Of a stretch of DNA of 64,000 nucleotides, positions 1,459 to 48,079 are shown piece after piece (position 1 is the first letter of the stretch; the number at the start of each line of letters is the position of its first letter). The stretch is taken from the NCBI RefSeq assembly GCF_014191715.1, contig NZ_JACHWY010000001.1, forward strand, positions 1,612,001 through 1,676,000. Reading direction: 5' to 3'. The translations under genes were made by a program, and so were the position numbers. This DNA is from Litorivivens lipolytica (GTDB taxonomy: Bacteria > Pseudomonadota > Gammaproteobacteria > Pseudomonadales > Spongiibacteraceae). The notes below the pieces were generated by a model. It ran no database searches. It was not told where the DNA came from and saw only the letters and a program-made list of their open reading frames with translations.

Positions 1459-2238
1459 CTAATTAATTTCATAGATTATAAGACGAGCGTTCGCGGGCAA
1501 ACCGGTTACAACACCAGCACCGTCAGGCGCCCTCTTTGAATCGTCTATTGCATGCAGCCGCGCCAATACGGGCACCACTTGCACACCTCCATTACTTTCA
1601 AACACCGTTTCGGATAAAAGCGCCCCCCCACTCATGAGAGTCACTCTAGCCGGAGTCACATGTAACTCGTCGACCAATTGAACATCTACTCGAGATTGAG
1701 GGTGATAAGCCGCATTGAAACTAGTCTTTACCGTATCGGCCAGTTCGACAAGTACAACCTTAAATTGGCTCGGTGATTCGCAAACCACTACTAACTCCAA
1801 GTAATCCTCATAGGGAGCTGTTGAGTAACCAACGTTTTCACCAGTAAATTCGATCTGCACTTCGCCACCATGCTCAAACTCACAACTCGATGAGCGAAGC
1901 ATGGACGGTAGCTGGCGTTGTAAAAAGGGCGGCAGAGCGTCAACGACCTCGTCGATAGAACTCCCTCTTGCAAGCATCTCTCGTATGGCTTCGGCAACGC
2001 TCTCCAGCTCAATTACTTGATCGGGATCTCCATGCAAAAGTACATCAATAGTCTCACGAGTCGCTTCATCTAACGTACACTGCGCATCTAGACTAGGCTC
2101 TGCGTTCTCGCCAAAACATCGCTCCTCAATAGACTCAGAAAAATGGTCTTTGAAGGGCATCAGTCTGTCTAGCAAGGCTCCACCTAGCGAGTACCCAGAC
2201 GCCACCGTTAAAAAGAACAAAATAAGATATCTGGACAT
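1459..2238 (-). CDS. Secreted protein of the chaperone-usher operon
   Basis: I do not recognise the family. The 259-residue product has an N-terminal hydrophobic segment consistent with a signal peptide (SRYLILFFLTVASGYSLG). The mature part is acidic with several Cys (ERCFGENAEPS, DAQCTLDE, SSSCEF, VVVCES), and the C-terminal half is predicted mostly beta. Its ATG overlaps the usher stop codon (ATGA at 2235-2238), so it is translationally coupled as the last gene of the operon. In chaperone-usher operons this place is often taken by a tip adhesin or minor subunit; that role is inference here. Confidence 0.6.
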   Translation of the reverse strand: MSRYLILFFLTVASGYSLGGALLDRLMPFKDHFSESIEERCFGENAEPSLDAQCTLDEATRETIDVLLHGDPDQVIELESVAEAIREMLARGSSIDEVVDALPPFLQRQLPSMLRSSSCEFEHGGEVQIEFTGENVGYSTAPYEDYLELVVVCESPSQFKVVLVELADTVKTSFNAAYHPQSRVDVQLVDELHVTPARVTLMSGGALLSETVFESNGGVQVVPVLARLHAIDDSKRAPDGAGVVTGLPANARLIIYEIN

Positions 2239-4526
2239 CAGTGCTCCCGGAATAACTCGCTGATTCTATAAAGGCGGCCTGTGTCACGATCGAATTCATA
2301 TATAGGCAACTCTTCTAAAACAAGAGGCAGCACCAAATCGTAAGATTTACCGCCAACTTCCAGCGTATTCTTTTCATTCGGGTGATACTTGGTGACGTAA
2401 GCACCGAAGTCGTTATGCACAAATGGCACACCATTAACAAAGATATCGTTAACGCCATTATTCAAAATATGAATTATAAGAGGAGACTGCATAACGGGCA
2501 TATCGACATTGACATAATTACCCTTCGCAACCCGAACAGGAGCAGCACCTTTAGCTAGAACATCGCTTCGATTCAACGAATCCCGATCGATTCTTACCTT
2601 TACTTCAGCAAAGGGAGGAACTGGAACCGAAGCAACTCCATCGGCGCCTGACTTGTCCGAATAACCCACCCCTTTAACAACTACATCGCGCTGCTGAGTA
2701 ACTGCAGTGGCATATGATTGAGAAACTGGACGAGAGGTTAAAAATGCGTCATGTCGACTAATGACAAAACCCGTTGTTAGCCGCGCACTCGTTCGCTCAA
2801 GGCTATTCACATCGCTATAGCTCGCTCTGGCGCTCACTTTCGCCCCCTGATAGGCTAATCCAGCGCGACTATCCACCGTGGAAGTGCGGTCGTATTCTTG
2901 GGCGGCGGCAAGCTGATACCCAAGGCTATTGTCTCCCACAGGAACGCTTCCTGTGATATCCGCACCTGCTGAACGATTATTTTTTTCCCAGCCGTGAGAC
3001 GCACGCACTCTTGGCTTGTACCGACCCTGCGGTCGATAGCCAATGGTAAATGTAGCCAAATAGTCGTCTGTTTCCAGATATTCCGCCGCAGCCTCTACAT
3101 ACCAGTTGTTTAGACTGTAGCCCGCGCCAACTGATCCGCCAGTAAAGCCAGCTATATCGAATGCAGAAACATTACCGTAAATTCGCCCAGCGCCCATGGC
3201 AAGTGAGATAGTCTTGCCGCGTCCATTTAACGCAGCTCGACGAAAACGAGGAAAGCGATCCGCTTCAAAGTACTCCGCGTTCACCTCGCCCCATCGCTGC
3301 AGCCCACCCCAACTCAAATTATACTGGGCTGTAAACGAATTTCCTTCTTCACGTCTGTCTCGATTTGCAGCCCATGCACCCTGCAAATTCAAAAGACTTT
3401 TTCCAAATGACAGAATAACCTCAGTCGACGCCTGCTCAAACTCGCCATTACCCTGATAACTTAAGATTTGCGTCCAATTATTGGTGACACCGACACTACC
3501 CCAGGCTAAGCCGTAATCGCCGCGATACTCGTTCTCACCCTCACGAATTGCACCGTAACCTATATCAAAATCAAACACGCCGGGCGCCAGATTACGAGTA
3601 ACATCGAATAATGACTGCCGTATTACTCGCCTATTACCAATCGAGTCAGTGAGAACCAAAGTCAGCTCATCGCCATGACTATAGAAACCACTTTCAAACT
3701 CAAGCCGCCCCTCTTGGTATTCTTGCTGCTTTACACGCTGACCATCAATAAAAAGCTCTAAAGTTCCCGGCAATCTCGCATCTGTCGCATACTTAAAAAA
3801 CGGCCGGTAGTTATAGTCTGGATCGACATTAAACGATCTGCGTATCCTGAAGCCTCCCAGCTGGACGGCCGCACCAAAGCCATCCGTCGCTGTCGTCACA
3901 TCTCCGATTTGAAGATTTACAAGTGATTCATCAAAAAATTTTTCGTAAAAGGACTGCCCTCGGATCGTCTCCGCGTCTTTAAAGTGGATGACCGAAGAAT
4001 AAATATTCCCAGTGCGACCCATTGATAAGCCAAAGTCGGCATCAATCGCATACTGCTCTTCATCAGTACGCTCTTCGTACCTACCCAGAAGATCAAACTG
4101 CGCAGCAAACCCTCCCCCATAAGCCAGCGGCATAGATTGCTGACTAGCGATGGTGGACACCACTCGCTGCGCAGGTTGATACTGAGGAAATATCTCTATT
4201 TGTGCTTTTGTCGTAGCCTCATCGAACCGGGCGTTAGCAACCAACTCCAGAGGTATACAGGGATTACAGCCATGAACATTTTCACTAAAACGCAACACTG
4301 CTTTCGTATCAACCAGCCCATTGAATTCTGTAACAGGGAAATACAGCTTGCCGTCAGGCCCCTCCACTAAAAGGATGTCGCGACGATTGCCACTGGAGAA
4401 ATCGGCCAAGTATGCACGCAGGTGGTTTTGAGCATCATTTGATAATGAGGTAGCCGAAAGTACTAGCGAGGCATTTATAGATATTAAAAATGCCAACGAA
4501 CACCTGATAATTAACGTCTTAAACAT
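2238..4526 (-). CDS. Fimbrial usher-like outer membrane protein
   Basis: Outer-membrane pore protein predicted to assemble and export surface-fibre subunits delivered by the chaperone. It has 762 residues, slightly shorter than classical FimD/PapC ushers. There is a signal peptide at 1-24 and an N-terminal domain with a Cys pair (HGCNPC near residue 85). A long beta-barrel region of alternating aromatic strands follows, with an usher-like segment (TLELFIDGQRV ... ELTLVLTDSIGNRRVI) near residues 250-305 that reads like the plug-flanking strands of archaic/Csu-type ushers. Beta-sandwich domains lie at the C-terminus. It sits between a chaperone (9-base gap) and a coupled secreted protein. The usher identity is fairly safe, the subfamily is not. 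Confidence 0.75.
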   Translation of the reverse strand: MFKTLIIRCSLAFLISINASLVLSATSLSNDAQNHLRAYLADFSSGNRRDILLVEGPDGKLYFPVTEFNGLVDTKAVLRFSENVHGCNPCIPLELVANARFDEATTKAQIEIFPQYQPAQRVVSTIASQQSMPLAYGGGFAAQFDLLGRYEERTDEEQYAIDADFGLSMGRTGNIYSSVIHFKDAETIRGQSFYEKFFDESLVNLQIGDVTTATDGFGAAVQLGGFRIRRSFNVDPDYNYRPFFKYATDARLPGTLELFIDGQRVKQQEYQEGRLEFESGFYSHGDELTLVLTDSIGNRRVIRQSLFDVTRNLAPGVFDFDIGYGAIREGENEYRGDYGLAWGSVGVTNNWTQILSYQGNGEFEQASTEVILSFGKSLLNLQGAWAANRDRREEGNSFTAQYNLSWGGLQRWGEVNAEYFEADRFPRFRRAALNGRGKTISLAMGAGRIYGNVSAFDIAGFTGGSVGAGYSLNNWYVEAAAEYLETDDYLATFTIGYRPQGRYKPRVRASHGWEKNNRSAGADITGSVPVGDNSLGYQLAAAQEYDRTSTVDSRAGLAYQGAKVSARASYSDVNSLERTSARLTTGFVISRHDAFLTSRPVSQSYATAVTQQRDVVVKGVGYSDKSGADGVASVPVPPFAEVKVRIDRDSLNRSDVLAKGAAPVRVAKGNYVNVDMPVMQSPLIIHILNNGVNDIFVNGVPFVHNDFGAYVTKYHPNEKNTLEVGGKSYDLVLPLVLEELPIYEFDRDTGRLYRISELFREH

Positions 4527-4535
4527 ATATATCCG

Positions 4536-5246
4536 CTACCGCTCTGGATCAACCCAGCCACTTCGGCGCAACTTAATAGCTGCGACTTCGTAAAGCGTTG
4601 CGACGGAAGCCAAATGAAAAATTTCGCCAGGCACTATGAACTTACCTACCGTTTCTGACCTCCCACTTCGATAGCGAATCTGTTCAATGTGATCGCCTCG
4701 AGTACCACTATTCGAAAGCCAAACCTTTTTATCCTTGAGACTCAGGGTGATATTTGGCTTCGAATCAGGCGCGATTATATTCAATGGGAATGCCTGCCCA
4801 ACCCGAGGGGCGACCCCGCTAGATTTGGGATTGCTTCGATCTTGCTTCAAACTAGCTTCAGAAACTGAATGCACGCGAATGTAGTAATACTTAGAAACAG
4901 CACTACCGCCCCGCCACAAAACACTAACTTGCTGAGACGTTTTTGGCTCGAGACGAAAAGTCTTGGGATAAATCACAACGAACCCGTCACGAGAGTTCTC
5001 ATAAACATTTGCACGAGGCGCAATGTCTATCGACACCACAACTGGCTCTTCCCCACCATTCTTTATAGGAAACCTCGACTGCGTTTGCGGAATCAAAATA
5101 GTGAGAGCTTGACCTGGAACACCTATTTGAGCCTGTGACGAGCCACAGCCAGCAAACAAAAATAGAGCTAAAAATAGGTATTTAAAGAGACCATTCATGA
5201 GAATTACCACAAAGAAGAGACAAGAATAGGCCAAAGCGCGAAGCAC
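4536..5246 (-). CDS. PapD-like periplasmic chaperone
   Basis: Predicted fimbrial chaperone that would hold subunits in the periplasm for the usher. The mature part has the immunoglobulin-like chaperone layout: QSRFPIKNGGEEPVVVSI, then DGFVVIYPKTFRLEPKTSQQVSVLWRGG, the usual 'P-x-x-F-x-L-x-P' strand, then YYIRVHSVSE. Two starts compete. GTG 5246 has GAGG five bases upstream (product 236 aa). ATG 5198 gives a cleaner signal (NGLFKYLFLALFLFAGC, a lipobox-like LFAGC) but a weaker ribosome site. If the second is used, the chaperone may be a lipoprotein, which would be unusual. It is the second gene of the operon after the 5293-6018 subunit candidate. Confidence 0.7.
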   Translation of the reverse strand: MLRALAYSCLFFVVILMNGLFKYLFLALFLFAGCGSSQAQIGVPGQALTILIPQTQSRFPIKNGGEEPVVVSIDIAPRANVYENSRDGFVVIYPKTFRLEPKTSQQVSVLWRGGSAVSKYYYIRVHSVSEASLKQDRSNPKSSGVAPRVGQAFPLNIIAPDSKPNITLSLKDKKVWLSNSGTRGDHIEQIRYRSGRSETVGKFIVPGEIFHLASVATLYEVAAIKLRRSGWVDPER

Positions 5247-5292
5247 TTCGGCCTCATCTACTTCAAGACTGATTATTATCTTTGCTTCACAA

Positions 5293-6018
5293 TCAGCTGC
5301 CGCCGTAAATCACGTAAAGCATAGGTGCGGGCGATCGTGGAGAGGAAATCACGCTACCAGTAGGCGCACTATTAACGGTCGGTGCTGCAGTGGGTGGGGT
5401 ATCTCCCTCTCGCATCGTTGTTGAGAACAAAGTTCCTGAAAAGGTAGCTGTAAGCTCGCCTCCAGCGTCAGCTGTCGCACTAGCACCGGCAAAAACACCA
5501 GTTGTACATGTAGCATTACCAGTGCAAGAAGCCAGATTTACAGTTATATATCCTTCCTGAAGGTTTTGCGTCACACACGACTCATCGCCACTCACAGCAC
5601 AACTTCGCGGATCCGGCACAAACGCTACAGGGTAGGATGTGCATCGACCATCGCTACCACATGCGAATGGATTAGCGCCACCAGCTTCCTGTCGAAAAGC
5701 AGGGTTGTTTGTCGCGAACTCAATTTGAGTTTCAGCAGTGGTTTCGCTGCAATCAATGGTTAGAGGAGACGTCGGAACCTTGTCATATTGGAATCGGCCC
5801 GTTGCAGCACCTTCTGAGTCTTTCTCTACTCTCCACTCACTAGCGTCGCCATCAAAATTAAACTCAACAGTACTTCCGACTTCAATCGAGCAAGTCCCGC
5901 CACCATCCACCGCAGCTATCGCCCCTGAAATTAGTACGGGAACCATATCTTCAGCCATAACGTTGCCATGCAAGCCGAAAACGGCAGACGCAAGCACTAT
6001 CAGTGATGTCTTCTTCAT
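5293..6018 (-). CDS. Secreted fimbrial-subunit candidate
   Basis: 241-residue protein with a clear signal peptide (cleavage near VMA/E, residue 22) and a good ribosome site (GGAG seven bases before ATG 6018). The mature part is beta-rich and carries several Cys: GGTCSIEVGS near residue 42, TIDCSE near 90, the ACGSDGRC and SCAVSGDESC pairs, and ASCTGNATC. The C-terminus is Pro/Ser/Thr-rich and ends YVIYGGS. As first gene of a chaperone-usher operon it is the best candidate for the exported structural subunit. I cannot place it in a named pilin family; a spore-coat-U-like (Csu-type) pilin is the nearest guess. The 244 bases upstream are strongly AT-rich, fitting a promoter region. Confidence 0.6.
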   Translation of the reverse strand: MKKTSLIVLASAVFGLHGNVMAEDMVPVLISGAIAAVDGGGTCSIEVGSTVEFNFDGDASEWRVEKDSEGAATGRFQYDKVPTSPLTIDCSETTAETQIEFATNNPAFRQEAGGANPFACGSDGRCTSYPVAFVPDPRSCAVSGDESCVTQNLQEGYITVNLASCTGNATCTTGVFAGASATADAGGELTATFSGTLFSTTMREGDTPPTAAPTVNSAPTGSVISSPRSPAPMLYVIYGGS

Positions 6019-6262: not shown

Positions 6263-7039
6263 TTAATAGCCCGCCAGGCTCATCCGATCGGGAGCCCTAT
6301 ATACAAACGAGCCAAAAGCCTGGAGCTCTTCACGATAAAGGCGCTCACAACGTGACAGATCATCGCTTTGTGTGTTTTTGTCCTGAATGAAGCTATAAAG
6401 TGAATGACGTGCGATCTCAGCAATGAGGCCTGGGATCTGATCGACAATTACTTCCTTTTCCACGCCAGACTCAATCCTGCCCATCAAATAGGTCTCAAGC
6501 TGCGCCAGACTCTGGGGGATGTTTCTTTCGTACAAGGCCAGCCGCAACTCCAGAGTAGAAGGAGACATTCTCTCCGACAGCTCAGCCAATATTATCTCTA
6601 CCAGCTGCAATGCGGGCTCAGCCCATATTTCGTGCCGACGCTCATCCAGCCTGTCTCGGGAATAGGTGTCACATTTACAGATGAAACGCCCGTAATACGC
6701 CTCAGGTAGTAACGAGGTGATTACCGCAACAGAAGGCGCAATCAAGACAAAGAAATATTCAGCTAATGTTGGGGGAGATTCTTCCGTCGCCTCCGCCAGC
6801 AGCCTGTCTAGCAAGCGCTTACGAAACTCGTTCAGTGGTTGTTCGCGAAATATTCGACAAGCGGCAAACAAACCATCCCTAGAGCGAAAATGGTAGTTCA
6901 CCGCAGCGGCATTACCGCTTTCTGCCCGCGCCAAAATATCACTGACACGAGCTTTCTCTCCGTTTATCGCAAACTCTCGTTCCGCCGCTATCAAAAGCTT
7001 AAGCGGAAGGGATGCTGAATCGTAAATCGAATGTGCCAC
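6263..7039 (-). CDS. TetR family transcriptional regulator
   Basis: 258-residue DNA-binding regulator. The N-terminal TetR helix-turn-helix is visible: LLIAAEREFAINGEKARVSDILARAESGNAAAVNYHFRSRDGLF, residues 15-58, with the 'YHF' recognition-helix end. The remainder is a helical ligand-binding and dimerisation domain. It is longer than most TetR proteins (about 200 aa). It is divergent from the small secreted peptide at 7267 and adjacent to the chaperone-usher operon, either of which might be its target. An imperfect inverted repeat 45-68 bases upstream of its start could be its own operator. Confidence 0.85.
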   Translation of the reverse strand: MAHSIYDSASLPLKLLIAAEREFAINGEKARVSDILARAESGNAAAVNYHFRSRDGLFAACRIFREQPLNEFRKRLLDRLLAEATEESPPTLAEYFFVLIAPSVAVITSLLPEAYYGRFICKCDTYSRDRLDERRHEIWAEPALQLVEIILAELSERMSPSTLELRLALYERNIPQSLAQLETYLMGRIESGVEKEVIVDQIPGLIAEIARHSLYSFIQDKNTQSDDLSRCERLYREELQAFGSFVYRAPDRMSLAGY

Positions 7040-7083
7040 ATCATCCTCTACATTACAGAGCTTGCCATCTTGTAATCATAGCA

Positions 7084-7107
7084 CTAACGACTTACTCAAA
7101 CAGTTAG
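7084..7107. promoter_or_regulatory. Candidate TetR operator
   Basis: CTAAC at 7084-7088 and GTTAG at 7103-7107 form an inverted repeat with 14-base spacing in the gap between the TetR gene (start 7039) and the peptide gene (start 7267). TetR regulators often bind such sites in a divergent promoter region. The arms are only five bases, so this is a weak call. Confidence 0.3.
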
Positions 7108-7266
7108 AATTGCGCCAGAACGTGAAACTAATGACTTTTATTGGTATTTGGTTTATAGCGCAGGATGTCACAGCAGGGTCCGAAAAATTGTGACGCTGTC
7201 ATCCAAATGTCACATTCCACTGGCAAACTCTCTTCCGTACACACTTTGACCGTTGAGGGTTTGCCC

Positions 7267-7455
7267 ATGAAACGCGTTGTACTTTGCTTTGCCGCTGCCC
7301 TGATCCCCGCTCTGGCGTCTGCCAACGAGGCAGTTCAGCATATAGAGGAAGTAGTGGTTACCGGTGCTGTGCGCGGTAACGACGCCATCCAGGTCGCCGA
7401 TATTAACCTCCCAGGCGATGCCGATCTGGCGGAAATGCCGGTTATTGCTGAGTAA
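7267..7455 (+). CDS. Small secreted peptide with TonB-box-like motif
   Basis: 62-residue protein. ATG 7267 is preceded by GAGGG seven bases upstream, and the product starts with a textbook signal peptide (KRVVLCFAAALIPALASA, cleavage near residue 19). Right after cleavage comes HIEEVVVTG, the motif that normally opens the plug of TonB-dependent receptors of this bacterial group. Here it is followed by only about 30 acidic residues, ending before any plug or barrel. A strong terminator follows. It could be a remnant of a receptor 5' end, but the intact signal, ribosome site and terminator argue for a real short gene. Function unknown. Confidence 0.65.
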   Translation: MKRVVLCFAAALIPALASANEAVQHIEEVVVTGAVRGNDAIQVADINLPGDADLAEMPVIAE

Positions 7456-7484
7456 TTCAGTTTAAGACTTTCCAGAAGTCTTTC

Positions 7485-7516
7485 AGGCGGCGGGCGTAGA
7501 GCCTGCCGCCTTTTTT
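7485..7516 (+). terminator. Intrinsic terminator after small peptide
   Basis: Eleven-base-pair stem (7485-7495 with 7501-7511, one G-T pair) with a GTAGA loop, followed by a T-run to 7516. It lies 30 bases after the peptide stop and before the convergent crotonase gene. Confidence 0.85.
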
Positions 7517-7538
7517 ATTATTTTCAATAACTTAAAAC

Positions 7539-8321
7539 CTAGCATCCCCGAAAAACAGCCGGACGCTTCTCGACAAAGGCTTTGACAGCTTCTGCCGCAT
7601 CTTGGGTCGCCAGACACACATTCTGGGTCTTGGCTTCCAGTGCAACCGTTTCCGCATAGCTCAGAGTCGTTGCCTTGCGTAGCAATTGCTTCACCTCACG
7701 CAGGGCGACCGGTGCTCGCTGAGCCAGCTCTTCTGCCCATTTGCGGGCTTCAGACATCAACTCATCGGCCGGCACCAGTTTGTTGGCAATGCCGGCTTCC
7801 AAACACTCATGGGCACTCATGCGACCGCCTTCGGCAATTAACTGGAAGGCGCGCTGATAGCCCAAGTGGCGCAGTAACTGCCAACTCGCGCCGCCGTCCG
7901 GCACCAGTGCGATATTGGTAAAGGCCAGCAGCATGCTGCCAGTATCCGCCATCATGATCAGATCCGAGTTCATGGCAAAGGCCGCACCGATACCGGCCAT
8001 CACACCGGGTACCGCGGCAATGATCGGTTTGTTTAGGTTGGCCATCAGATCGAGTACCGGGAAGTACTCTTTCATGATCTGATCTTCCACAGTTTTCTGC
8101 TCGCCGAGGCCATCCATCAGGTCGGCGCCGGATGAAAAAGCCTTGCCAGTCGAACCGAACAACACCACGCGCACCGCCTCGTTTTCACCTGCCTCGGTAA
8201 AGGCTGAAAGCAGCTCTTTGCGCATCTGCACATTAAAGGCGTTCAGGGATTCCGGGCGGTTCAGCAGAATATTGGCCACATGACCGTCGACCGAATAGCT
8301 GATGGTTTGATAGTCAGACAT
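7539..8321 (-). CDS. Enoyl-CoA hydratase/isomerase (PaaG-like crotonase)
   Basis: 260-residue crotonase-fold enzyme acting on acyl-CoA thioesters. The oxyanion-hole regions are present (SSGADL near 63-68 and GVMAGIGAAF near 106-115). The first catalytic Glu of true enoyl-CoA hydratases is absent (Ala in GIGAAFA), and the second is replaced by Asp142 in LVPDGGAS. That arrangement is the one known from PaaG-type isomerases, so a double-bond isomerase or related activity is likelier than hydration. It lies eight bases downstream of the acyl-CoA dehydrogenase gene, in one transcription unit. Confidence 0.85.
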   Translation of the reverse strand: MSDYQTISYSVDGHVANILLNRPESLNAFNVQMRKELLSAFTEAGENEAVRVVLFGSTGKAFSSGADLMDGLGEQKTVEDQIMKEYFPVLDLMANLNKPIIAAVPGVMAGIGAAFAMNSDLIMMADTGSMLLAFTNIALVPDGGASWQLLRHLGYQRAFQLIAEGGRMSAHECLEAGIANKLVPADELMSEARKWAEELAQRAPVALREVKQLLRKATTLSYAETVALEAKTQNVCLATQDAAEAVKAFVEKRPAVFRGC

Positions 8322-45961: not shown

Positions 45962-48079
45962 TCAGTAAGCCCAGGACAGGGTGAGCTGACTGTTACGGGG
46001 AGCACCATAAAAGCCCTGTTCCCAATACAGACTGGTGATGTATTTCTCGTCGGTCACGTTGCCGATGTTCAAAGAGGCCGTCAGACTGTCGGTGATGGCG
46101 TACTGAGCAAAGAGATCCAGCAGTGCATAGCTGCCCTGCTTTACGCGCGTGCCGAGAGTAGGCAGTTTCATGTACGTGTCGTCCTGCCAGCGCAGCCCAC
46201 CACCAACGCGCAGTGGCAACACACCCGGCATCTGATAACTGAGGCTGGCATTCAGGGTTCGCTTAGGCACATAGTGACGCGCGCTATCGCCCTGATCATC
46301 TTCAATCTGCAGGACGGTAAAGTTGATATTGCCGCGCAGACCTTCGGCCAGATAGCCGCTGACTTCCAGCTCAAGCCCCTCGCTGGCGAAATCCACACCG
46401 CGGTAGACCCGCACTACCCCACCGGAAACCGGATCAGTTGCGTTGCCGGCAGCTTCTGCCGTGTTGTCATGCTCGGCACGGAAGACCGCCGCTGTTGCCA
46501 GCATGCGGCCACCGAACAGTTCGCCCTTTACGCCCAGCTCAATATTGCGCCCTTCGTTGGGATCGAGGCGGGTGAAGTCCTGACCGAGGTCGCGCTGCGG
46601 CATAAAGGTTTCGGTATAGCTGGTGTAGACCGTGTAGTCGTCGGCAAAGCGATACAACAGCCCGGCATAGGGCAAAGTCTTACCATTGGCTTCGGTGGAA
46701 TGATCTTCACCGTAGCTGCGACCTTCGCTTTCCCAGTCGATGGTGCGCGCACCGGCCGTTAGAGACAGGTTGTCGGTAAAGCGGTAACGGGTAGCGACGT
46801 AGATCGCCTGCTGGCGGTCAGTCCAGTTACTGCCATTGGCGGGGTCGCCAATGCCGTCGGCAAAGGTCGGGTAAGGCGCATTGCCATCCCAGGTATGCAG
46901 ATTGTCGATCGGCGGGAAGCCGTTACCGGTCGTAAAATCATAGACCGACGCATCTTTTAAGGTATTGCGCGCCCAGTTCGCTCCGAACACGATTTCGTGT
47001 TCACGGCCAGCCAGTGAATAACGACCGGAAACGTAGGCATCGGTGACGCCCTGATCTTCCTGCAGGGTGTAGGCGCTGGCATAGCCCGTCAGGCCCTGTT
47101 CAGTCACCGGGTCGGGTTGACCAAACACATAGAACAACTCTGAATCGCCATCGCGCCCATTGGCGTTGTGGCTGAGGATCAACTGCCAACCCTCGGCGAG
47201 CGTTTGCGCATACTCGATAAAGGCAGTGCGCCGATTGGTGTCCCAGTAAGACCAGTTCGACGAGGTGCTGGTCGAGGTATCATAGTCGGTCTGGGAGCCA
47301 TCTGTGTAATACAGGGGCAAGGCACCCCACAGTGGGCGGTCCGCATCACTGGACTGGAAGCTGCCACCAAAGGTCAGGCGCGCGCTGTCGCCAATATCCT
47401 GCTCAACCACCAGATATCCCAGTTTTATATCGAGCGAGTAGCGATCAAGGTAGGAGTCCCGGCTTTCCCTTGCCGCCACGGCGCGAAGGCGAGTCGACTC
47501 GCCGAGTACGACGCTAACGTCACCCTCTAAACGGCGCCGGTCCCACGAACCCGCTGTCAGCGCCAGTCGACCACTGTCTTCGGAAAACGGGCGTTTGCGC
47601 ACCAGATTGATACTGGCAGAAGGATTGCCGGCACCGGCCATCAGACCGTTGGGACCCCGCACCACATCTATGCGCTCGTAGATTGCGGTGTCTAATTCAC
47701 CCGCACGGTTGCCATAGCTTAGTGACAGCCCTACACCGTCGATCTGGAAGTTGGTGATATCAAACCCCCGCGCGGTGTAATAAGTTCGATCCGTCTCCAC
47801 GCGCTGCACCTGCACTCCGGACGCAGTATCCAGCGCCTGATTAAGGCTGACCATGCCAAAGTCGCGCATCTGATCCTGACCAATGGTGCTGATAGATTGG
47901 GGAGTTTCCAGCGCAGACAGCCCTAGACGGGTGGCACTGCTGTCACCCGCGGGCAGGTAGCCATCGCCCTTTTGCCCATAAACCGTCACCGTTTCGATTT
48001 CTTTCGCGATCAGCAAACCGCTGCAACCAGCCAGCAATACCGCCGCCCAATAGCGGCGACCCCGTGTATGCGTCTTCAT
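45962..48079 (-). CDS. TonB-dependent siderophore receptor
   Basis: 705-residue outer-membrane receptor. Signal peptide to about 25, TonB box-like IETVTVYG near 27-34, plug domain with ETPQSISTIGQDQMRDFG and YERIDVVRGPNGLMAGAGNPSASINLVRKRP (near 130-170), then the barrel ending in an aromatic residue (LTLSWAY). No N-terminal signalling domain. The plug wording is that of ferric-siderophore (FhuE/FpvA-like) receptors. A Fur-box match 48-66 bases upstream indicates control by iron. Confidence 0.93.
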   Translation of the reverse strand: MKTHTRGRRYWAAVLLAGCSGLLIAKEIETVTVYGQKGDGYLPAGDSSATRLGLSALETPQSISTIGQDQMRDFGMVSLNQALDTASGVQVQRVETDRTYYTARGFDITNFQIDGVGLSLSYGNRAGELDTAIYERIDVVRGPNGLMAGAGNPSASINLVRKRPFSEDSGRLALTAGSWDRRRLEGDVSVVLGESTRLRAVAARESRDSYLDRYSLDIKLGYLVVEQDIGDSARLTFGGSFQSSDADRPLWGALPLYYTDGSQTDYDTSTSTSSNWSYWDTNRRTAFIEYAQTLAEGWQLILSHNANGRDGDSELFYVFGQPDPVTEQGLTGYASAYTLQEDQGVTDAYVSGRYSLAGREHEIVFGANWARNTLKDASVYDFTTGNGFPPIDNLHTWDGNAPYPTFADGIGDPANGSNWTDRQQAIYVATRYRFTDNLSLTAGARTIDWESEGRSYGEDHSTEANGKTLPYAGLLYRFADDYTVYTSYTETFMPQRDLGQDFTRLDPNEGRNIELGVKGELFGGRMLATAAVFRAEHDNTAEAAGNATDPVSGGVVRVYRGVDFASEGLELEVSGYLAEGLRGNINFTVLQIEDDQGDSARHYVPKRTLNASLSYQMPGVLPLRVGGGLRWQDDTYMKLPTLGTRVKQGSYALLDLFAQYAITDSLTASLNIGNVTDEKYITSLYWEQGFYGAPRNSQLTLSWAY

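Follow-up and report, generated by a model that had tools for sequence, protein, structure and literature searches.

A conserved, putatively exported small protein resembling the N-terminus of TonB-dependent receptors and its association with a transglutaminase-like enzyme in Litorivivens lipolytica and relatives

The peptide gene and its surroundings

The window investigated here comprises 64,000 nucleotides of the genome of Litorivivens lipolytica (assembly GCF_014191715.1, contig NZ_JACHWY010000001.1, positions 1,612,001 to 1,676,000), and coordinates without further label refer to this stretch. On its forward strand lies a small gene (7267..7455; ATG at 7267, stop codon at 7453-7455) encoding an exported-looking protein of 62 aa with a TonB-box-like motif (MKRVVLCFAAALIPALASANEAVQHIEEVVVTGAVRGNDAIQVADINLPGDADLAEMPVIAE). 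A ribosome-binding site read from the sequence, GAGGG (7255..7259, +), is located 7 nt 5' of the ATG, and an intrinsic-terminator-like hairpin with a T run (7485..7511, +; 11 pairs, 9 of them G-C) follows the gene; the interval 7000-7600 contains two terminator-like sites, where shuffled sequences gave 0.8 on average, and no match to a sigma-70-like promoter. An alternative in-frame ATG at 7165 would give a product of 96 aa; the start at 7267 is common to the same-genus homologue. The first-pass annotation had described just such a gene, a 62-residue protein with signal peptide, ribosome-binding site and terminator but neither plug nor barrel, and this description was borne out.

Residues 1-19 (MKRVVLCFAAALIPALASA; 7267..7323, +) form the putative, hydrophobic signal peptide, with a cut after ASA; for the peptide and for the enzyme discussed below alike, signal peptides were assigned by eye. 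With the putative cut after residue 19, the TonB-box-like motif begins 6 residues past it and not directly after cleavage as first annotated, so that of this earlier claim the motif stands and its position does not. The motif in question, IEEVVVTGAV (motif 1; 7342..7371, +), was recognised from the sequence, the family alignment and a box profile, and a second one, the C-terminal DADLAEMPVIAE (motif 2; 7417..7452, +), from the alignment and a tail profile. Pfam and NCBIfam searches of the peptide returned no match near any cut-off; the plug domain PF07715 was not matched, the best Pfam match being DUF5818 (E 0.15), and no in-frame beta-barrel follows, since the frame stops at 7453-7455 and the homologues end at the same conserved C-terminus. 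AlphaFold2 did not fold the mature peptide of 43 aa (pLDDT 62, pTM 0.17), which is probably unstructured, and a mechanism cannot be read from the prediction.

The divergent neighbour (6263..7039, -) is TetR-like, based on a weak TetR_N match (E 0.003) below the Pfam cut-off. The interval 7166-7213, 101 to 54 bases 5' of the peptide ATG, contains TGTCA[CT] three times and GTGAC once; these words may possibly represent an operator for this regulator gene. The convergent neighbour (7539..8321, -), whose product we take to be enoyl-CoA hydratase-like, is also found beside the peptide gene in the same-genus neighbourhood L028, not in the other neighbourhoods examined. Further upstream, a chaperone-usher-like cluster (1459-6018) encodes proteins of 241, 236, 762 and 259 aa, of which the 236 aa protein matches PapD_N just under the cut-off (E 1.6e-4) and the usher-sized 762 aa protein gave no Pfam match at 0.01.

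Conservation of the peptide and its pairing with an enzyme

Searching 57 genomes, the own genome and relatives, we observed short, free-standing homologues in 19 of the 21 same-family genomes (members of Zhongshania, Spongiibacter, Neomelitea and one Spongiibacteraceae MAG among them) and in none of the 36 genomes outside the family at E 0.01. The two family genomes in which the peptide was not found, G001 and G020, have a completeness of 89% and 84%, and were searched with a single sequence. Counted from the likely start, the homologues are 62-73 aa long and end alike: M1, A19, the motif 1 residues E27, E28, V29, V31, G33, A34 and V35, and the motif 2 residues D51, M57, P58 and E62, which is the last residue, are invariant in all 19 aligned rows. 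Compared with the same-genus homologue, the mature part shows a dN/dS of 0.021 (20 synonymous and 3 nonsynonymous differences, Nei-Gojobori), the signal peptide one of 0.74; over 210 pairs from 21 sequences, the median pN is 0.51 in the signal and 0.23 in the mature part. On these sequence comparisons, the exported chain is the part that is kept, the mature peptide is under strong purifying selection, and the gene is to be regarded as real and strongly conserved. No paralogue was found in the own genome (next best match E 0.18).

The first-pass annotation had also suggested looking for short homologues with a conserved tail and comparing their dN/dS, with a receptor remnant as one of its two readings. 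Such homologues do occur in the relatives, none of them runs on into a receptor, and the remnant reading in the sense of a dead gene is rejected, because the homologues are short and free-standing, with a conserved C-terminus and under purifying selection; the gene may still have arisen long ago from the N-terminus of a receptor.

A profile built from the 19 rows matched 76 of 390 genomes of the order at E 0.01. Full-length short matches (E <=3.1e-10) were confined to 20 of these 390 genomes, 18 from the own family and two from a second family (G222 and G297, genus g102), and a tail-only profile recovered the identical 20 genomes below 1e-12, with the next match at 9e-4. The remaining full-profile matches are weaker (8.7e-7 or worse) and lie mostly inside frames of 700-1100 aa; all ten that were fetched (L058-L067) turned out to be receptor N-termini and were therefore excluded from the member count. 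The best short-frame tail matches outside the 20 genomes, L096 (E 9e-4) and L098 (E 0.012), have neither motif 1 nor an adjacent enzyme frame and were consequently taken as chance matches.

Outside the own genus, the neighbourhoods L029-L037 and L068-L075 show the peptide gene in convergent orientation to the gene of an enzyme of ~475-560 aa. Searched independently in 390 order genomes sampled likewise, the enzyme was found in the 20 peptide genomes only. In the second family, 100 genomes were searched: six have the peptide (E 1e-4), and these six plus G770 have the enzyme; in genus g102, the other two sampled genomes (G792, G807) contain neither. G770 encodes two full enzymes without any peptide match by search, because its adjacent peptides, which were found by position, have diverged: one short, exported-looking protein (...MEIMTVVGAVK...NLQAMPTVEE) is convergent and 13 bp from its enzyme gene, and another (...MEEVMVVGAVS...NLAELPTIVE...) is encoded downstream of the enzyme on the same strand. 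As to the three family genomes outside the order sample, G002 contains both genes, G001 and G020 neither. Altogether, both genes were found by search in 25 genomes, and the peptide alone in none of the genomes examined for both.

In 23 of the 25 genomes the pair is convergent, with ~9-171 bases separating the matched ends. Within the window's own genus, the two genes are on different contigs in the genome of the window (G000) and in G002, and both are kept; in G001 both went undetected. The own-genome enzyme copy (G000:C2:93616-94992, 44% identical to the query) is therefore on another contig than the peptide gene, and a DUF3301 gene overlaps its end. This partner gene, the most telling clue of all, was thus out of sight for the first-pass annotation. 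Retention of both genes after unlinking argues for function rather than mere linkage, and the co-occurrence clusters on the tree, which means few independent events. These observations point to peptide and enzyme forming a two-part system in their bacterial group.

Other genes occur close to the pair in some neighbourhoods. Near the g102 peptide-enzyme pair, a second small exported-looking protein of 80-91 aa (e.g. MKSFVKVLAVAGVLMSVSSVVLAEERVDFATAGMIGVLPEMEAKL...) is encoded at L068 6580-6822 (-) and L200 7325-7600 (+), the L068 copy having no Pfam match. An alpha/beta hydrolase-like gene, so called from a Pfam search of the L074 copy only, precedes the enzyme gene on the same strand at L070 4919-5827, L074 5211-6092 and L073 9404-10387.

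The enzyme matches the Pfam family Transglut_core with E-values of 7e-14 to 4e-19 and, in 3 of 3 copies, with 52-69 bits against a curated cut-off of 23 (62 in the own-genome copy, 64 in the L075 copy). A Cys-His-Asp triad is present in all nine aligned copies from named genomes; a regular expression for it matched 19 of 27 enzymes, and the remaining 8 can be seen from their sequences to have all three residues. A signal peptide is present as judged by eye, and 13 of the 26 peptide-linked copies contain a lipobox pattern. An AlphaFold2 model computed from nine named-genome sequences (pLDDT 78, pTM 0.50) resembles, over residues 28-231, the Brucella protein EipB (DUF1849; 6ntr; Foldseek E 6.7e-8; VIA-align Z 17.9, rmsd 3.1, 199 aligned, 10% identity), the next small barrel being a DUF1089 protein (Z 13.7, rmsd 3.1, 158 aligned). 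The C-terminal part resembles 3isr, titled a putative cysteine protease (Foldseek E 2.5e-7; VIA-align Z 17.4, rmsd 3.4, 197 aligned), and eukaryotic transglutaminases (the true transglutaminases at Z 9-11), TgpA and LapG follow lower down. In the predicted structure, the enzyme is thus a protein with an EipB-like N-terminal spiral beta-barrel; the DUF1849 Pfam profile, however, finds no sequence match in the enzyme copies. Its sequence places the partner in the transglutaminase-like superfamily, and its activity could equally be that of a protease.

TgpA (6g49/6g4h), LapG (4fgo/4fgp) and 3isr share the catalytic-domain fold and the Cys-His-Asp residues with the enzyme, but in the latter the catalytic domain is joined to the EipB/DUF1849-like barrel, and the enzyme is linked with a peptide gene. 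LapG acts with LapD and LapA as its partners, and neither of these was seen by eye in the neighbourhoods listed. For EipB, the literature reports a barrel that lacks an enzyme domain, which distinguishes it from the partner enzyme, and an effect on envelope integrity, its exact role being unknown (PMC10787603). In the open-licence literature searched, we found no description of the peptide family or of its pairing with the enzyme; the kinds of components are known, and their combination appears to be new.

Resemblance to receptor N-termini and possible functions

TonB-dependent receptors consist of a plug (PF07715) followed by a barrel, and the own genome contains 55 plug matches. The DNA upstream of all 55 was analysed, and a box was found by pattern in 50, most commonly EEVVVTA (14), EEVIVTA (13) and EEVLVTA (7). 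One of the 55 plug matches lies within the window itself (47618-47911; G000:C1:1659618-1659911), with the TonB box IETVTVYG, which is unusual in this genome. In the profile of the own receptor boxes, IEEVVVTG scores 18.3 bits, above all 24,030 8-mers of long window ORFs. The same score is reached by the peptide of G002, and 11-14 bits by the rest of the family; the g102 peptides score 7.5-10.5 bits, L193 and L203 10.9, and L192, L205 and L202 merely 3.4-4.5, which is no signal, since 0.5-0.9% of the background reaches this. An hhalign comparison of the mature family profile with the own receptor boxes aligned 12 columns (P 5.8e-6). Receptor L149 also has a box and is outside the box, tail-profile and hhalign counts.

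The second motif resembles the receptors as well. In 41 of 51 own receptors, a profile of the last 12 residues of the peptides has its maximum at one and the same position, 11 residues downstream of where the box begins; this position corresponds to the plug start, EESLQDTPVSVS. There the profile scores 9.2 bits on average, as compared to a background mean of -9.0, and exceeds 12 bits in 24 of the 51 receptors versus a fraction of 4.2e-5 of 23,754 background 12-mers. In the reverse test, a plug-start profile was run over the peptides, with a mixed outcome: nine of the 30 tails score higher than any of the 23,754 background 12-mers, namely four of the 19 family tails, five of the six from g102 and none of the five others. 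The family tails thus resemble the plug start, the tail encoded in the window only weakly (5.1 bits, reached by 0.3% of the background). With hhalign, peptide tail and plug align over 10 columns (P 0.006), the profile scan being the stronger test. At the level of sequence, the family taken together clearly mimics the receptors, though not uniformly.

Peptide and receptors share the succession of export signal, TonB-box-like motif and plug-start-like motif. They differ in that the peptide chain, devoid of plug and barrel, stops where a plug would begin, in that its linker is 13-14 residues longer (the second motif follows the box at an offset of 24-25 residues, compared to 11 in receptors), and in the invariant GA after its box.

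Considering the conservation, the co-occurrence, the convergent linkage and the motif similarity, together with an export signal assigned by eye, we lean towards the view that the peptide is a dedicated ligand, either inhibitor or substrate, of the exported transglutaminase-like enzyme and mimics a receptor N-terminus. We infer that the mature chain of 43 aa would bind the enzyme through the short linear motifs at its two ends, which a variable linker separates: motif 1 (EEVxVxGAV) might dock on it as an added beta-strand, and motif 2 (DExLxEMPVxxE-COOH) might sit close to the EipB-like barrel or to the active site, by which the peptide would become a pseudo-substrate inhibitor or a specific substrate. 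As the two motifs follow each other like the TonB box and plug start that they resemble, the peptide probably mimics the receptor N-terminus, and the enzyme may consequently act on such termini. A bolder version, for which we see some small chance, makes the peptide a decoy of receptor N-termini and the built-in pseudo-substrate of a receptor surveillance system, in which the barrel-plus-transglutaminase enzyme would process or check the TonB-box/plug-entry segment of the receptors and the decoy would control the enzyme.

The other reading of the first-pass annotation was that the free peptide could compete for or modulate TonB. Such an enzyme-independent role, with the box of the free peptide binding the TonB C-terminal domain and thereby limiting or timing receptor energisation, would agree with the box scores within the own family, L193 and L203, with the hhalign result and with a genome this rich in plug matches. 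Synthetic TonB-box pentapeptide inhibitors were reportedly described by Tuckman and Osburne in 1992; they too are free peptides with a TonB box, but synthetic and externally added, whereas the peptide discussed here is the product of a conserved chromosomal gene with an export signal. In E. coli, a Ton box pentapeptide was added as a means of blocking TonB action (PMC5413942), which provides a precedent. We nevertheless consider this role unlikely: in most homologues V, I or M replaces the T or S of receptors, a GA is invariant, motif 1 is weaker in g102 and gives no signal in L192, L205 and L202, and the pairing with the enzyme is left unexplained. Nor is a Fur-like site beyond shuffles found in 21 of 22 upstream stretches; scanned against 60 base shuffles, only the L015 row exceeded them, the window and L009 being the same stretch among the 22. 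Covalent attachment of the peptide by the enzyme to an envelope protein or to peptidoglycan could draw on the true transglutaminases among the fold matches, on the complete triad and on a short unfolded partner, which would suit a tag; the peptide, however, has no invariant Gln or Lys, so that its classic transglutamination is not indicated, and the best match to the catalytic domain is a structure titled putative cysteine protease, which makes this reading quite improbable in our opinion.

Two further explanations fare much worse. That the peptide is the drifted, functionless, still translated N-terminus of a former receptor would account for two motifs in receptor order, but is highly improbable given the dN/dS of the mature part, the invariant C-terminal residues, the retention of the gene by 19 of the 21 family genomes and its presence in a second family. 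Hardly credible is likewise a bacteriocin-like secreted peptide entering rival cells via its TonB box: colicin M and pyocin S2 do carry TonB boxes (PMC11658791), but a signal of the Sec type takes a protein to the periplasm, inspection of the listed neighbourhoods by eye revealed neither an immunity nor an export gene, and the peptide is conserved family-wide instead of being variable.

If the peptide is indeed a ligand of the enzyme, its importance would lie in the fact that receptor-rich bacteria, such as the one studied here, must share TonB among many receptors. To our knowledge, periplasmic factors watching receptor N-termini are an open question, and a conserved mimic of the receptor terminus tied to one enzyme offers a small and directly testable handle: two genes and one predicted complex.

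Distant relatives of the enzyme

Relatives of the enzyme occur in 39 of 121 genomes of another order, and distant ones in two of 369 genomes of the class besides the own genome. A tree of 58 enzymes unites the 26 peptide-linked ones from this order in a single clade (100/99) and 29 further enzymes in a clade without a recognised peptide; L202, L203 and L205 make up a third small group with long branches, whose position is therefore unsure. Within 1.5 kb or less per side, no partner was recognised for 29 of the 32 relatives outside the peptide-linked clade, and no adjacent peptide candidate was found beside the distant enzymes of G623 and G755:C9. When 30 loci of the other order were scanned for the motifs, two matches resulted, the number also obtained from 77,250 bases of control sequence, so that the candidate of G755, next to L202, is no better than chance.

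L203 and L205 were examined by eye after the tree had grouped them with L202, which makes theirs a post hoc choice. By eye, both show a convergent protein with the two motifs after a hydrophobic segment (LTTVTVTGGL...EELAADLPIIDE in L203, LEPILLFVGGV...ESDLSVLPVVYE in L205). In a tail scan of 32 loci, built without these two, L205 came first with 14.7 bits, above the control maximum of 12.2, and L203 second with 11.1 bits, below it; by these scores, L205 is suggestive as a distant partner and L203 a weak candidate. In both proteins (L203 1-447, +; L205 2283-3059, -), which gave no Pfam match, a Cys-x-x-Cys segment precedes the hydrophobic segment, so that the peptide part may here be the tail of a membrane-spanning regulator.
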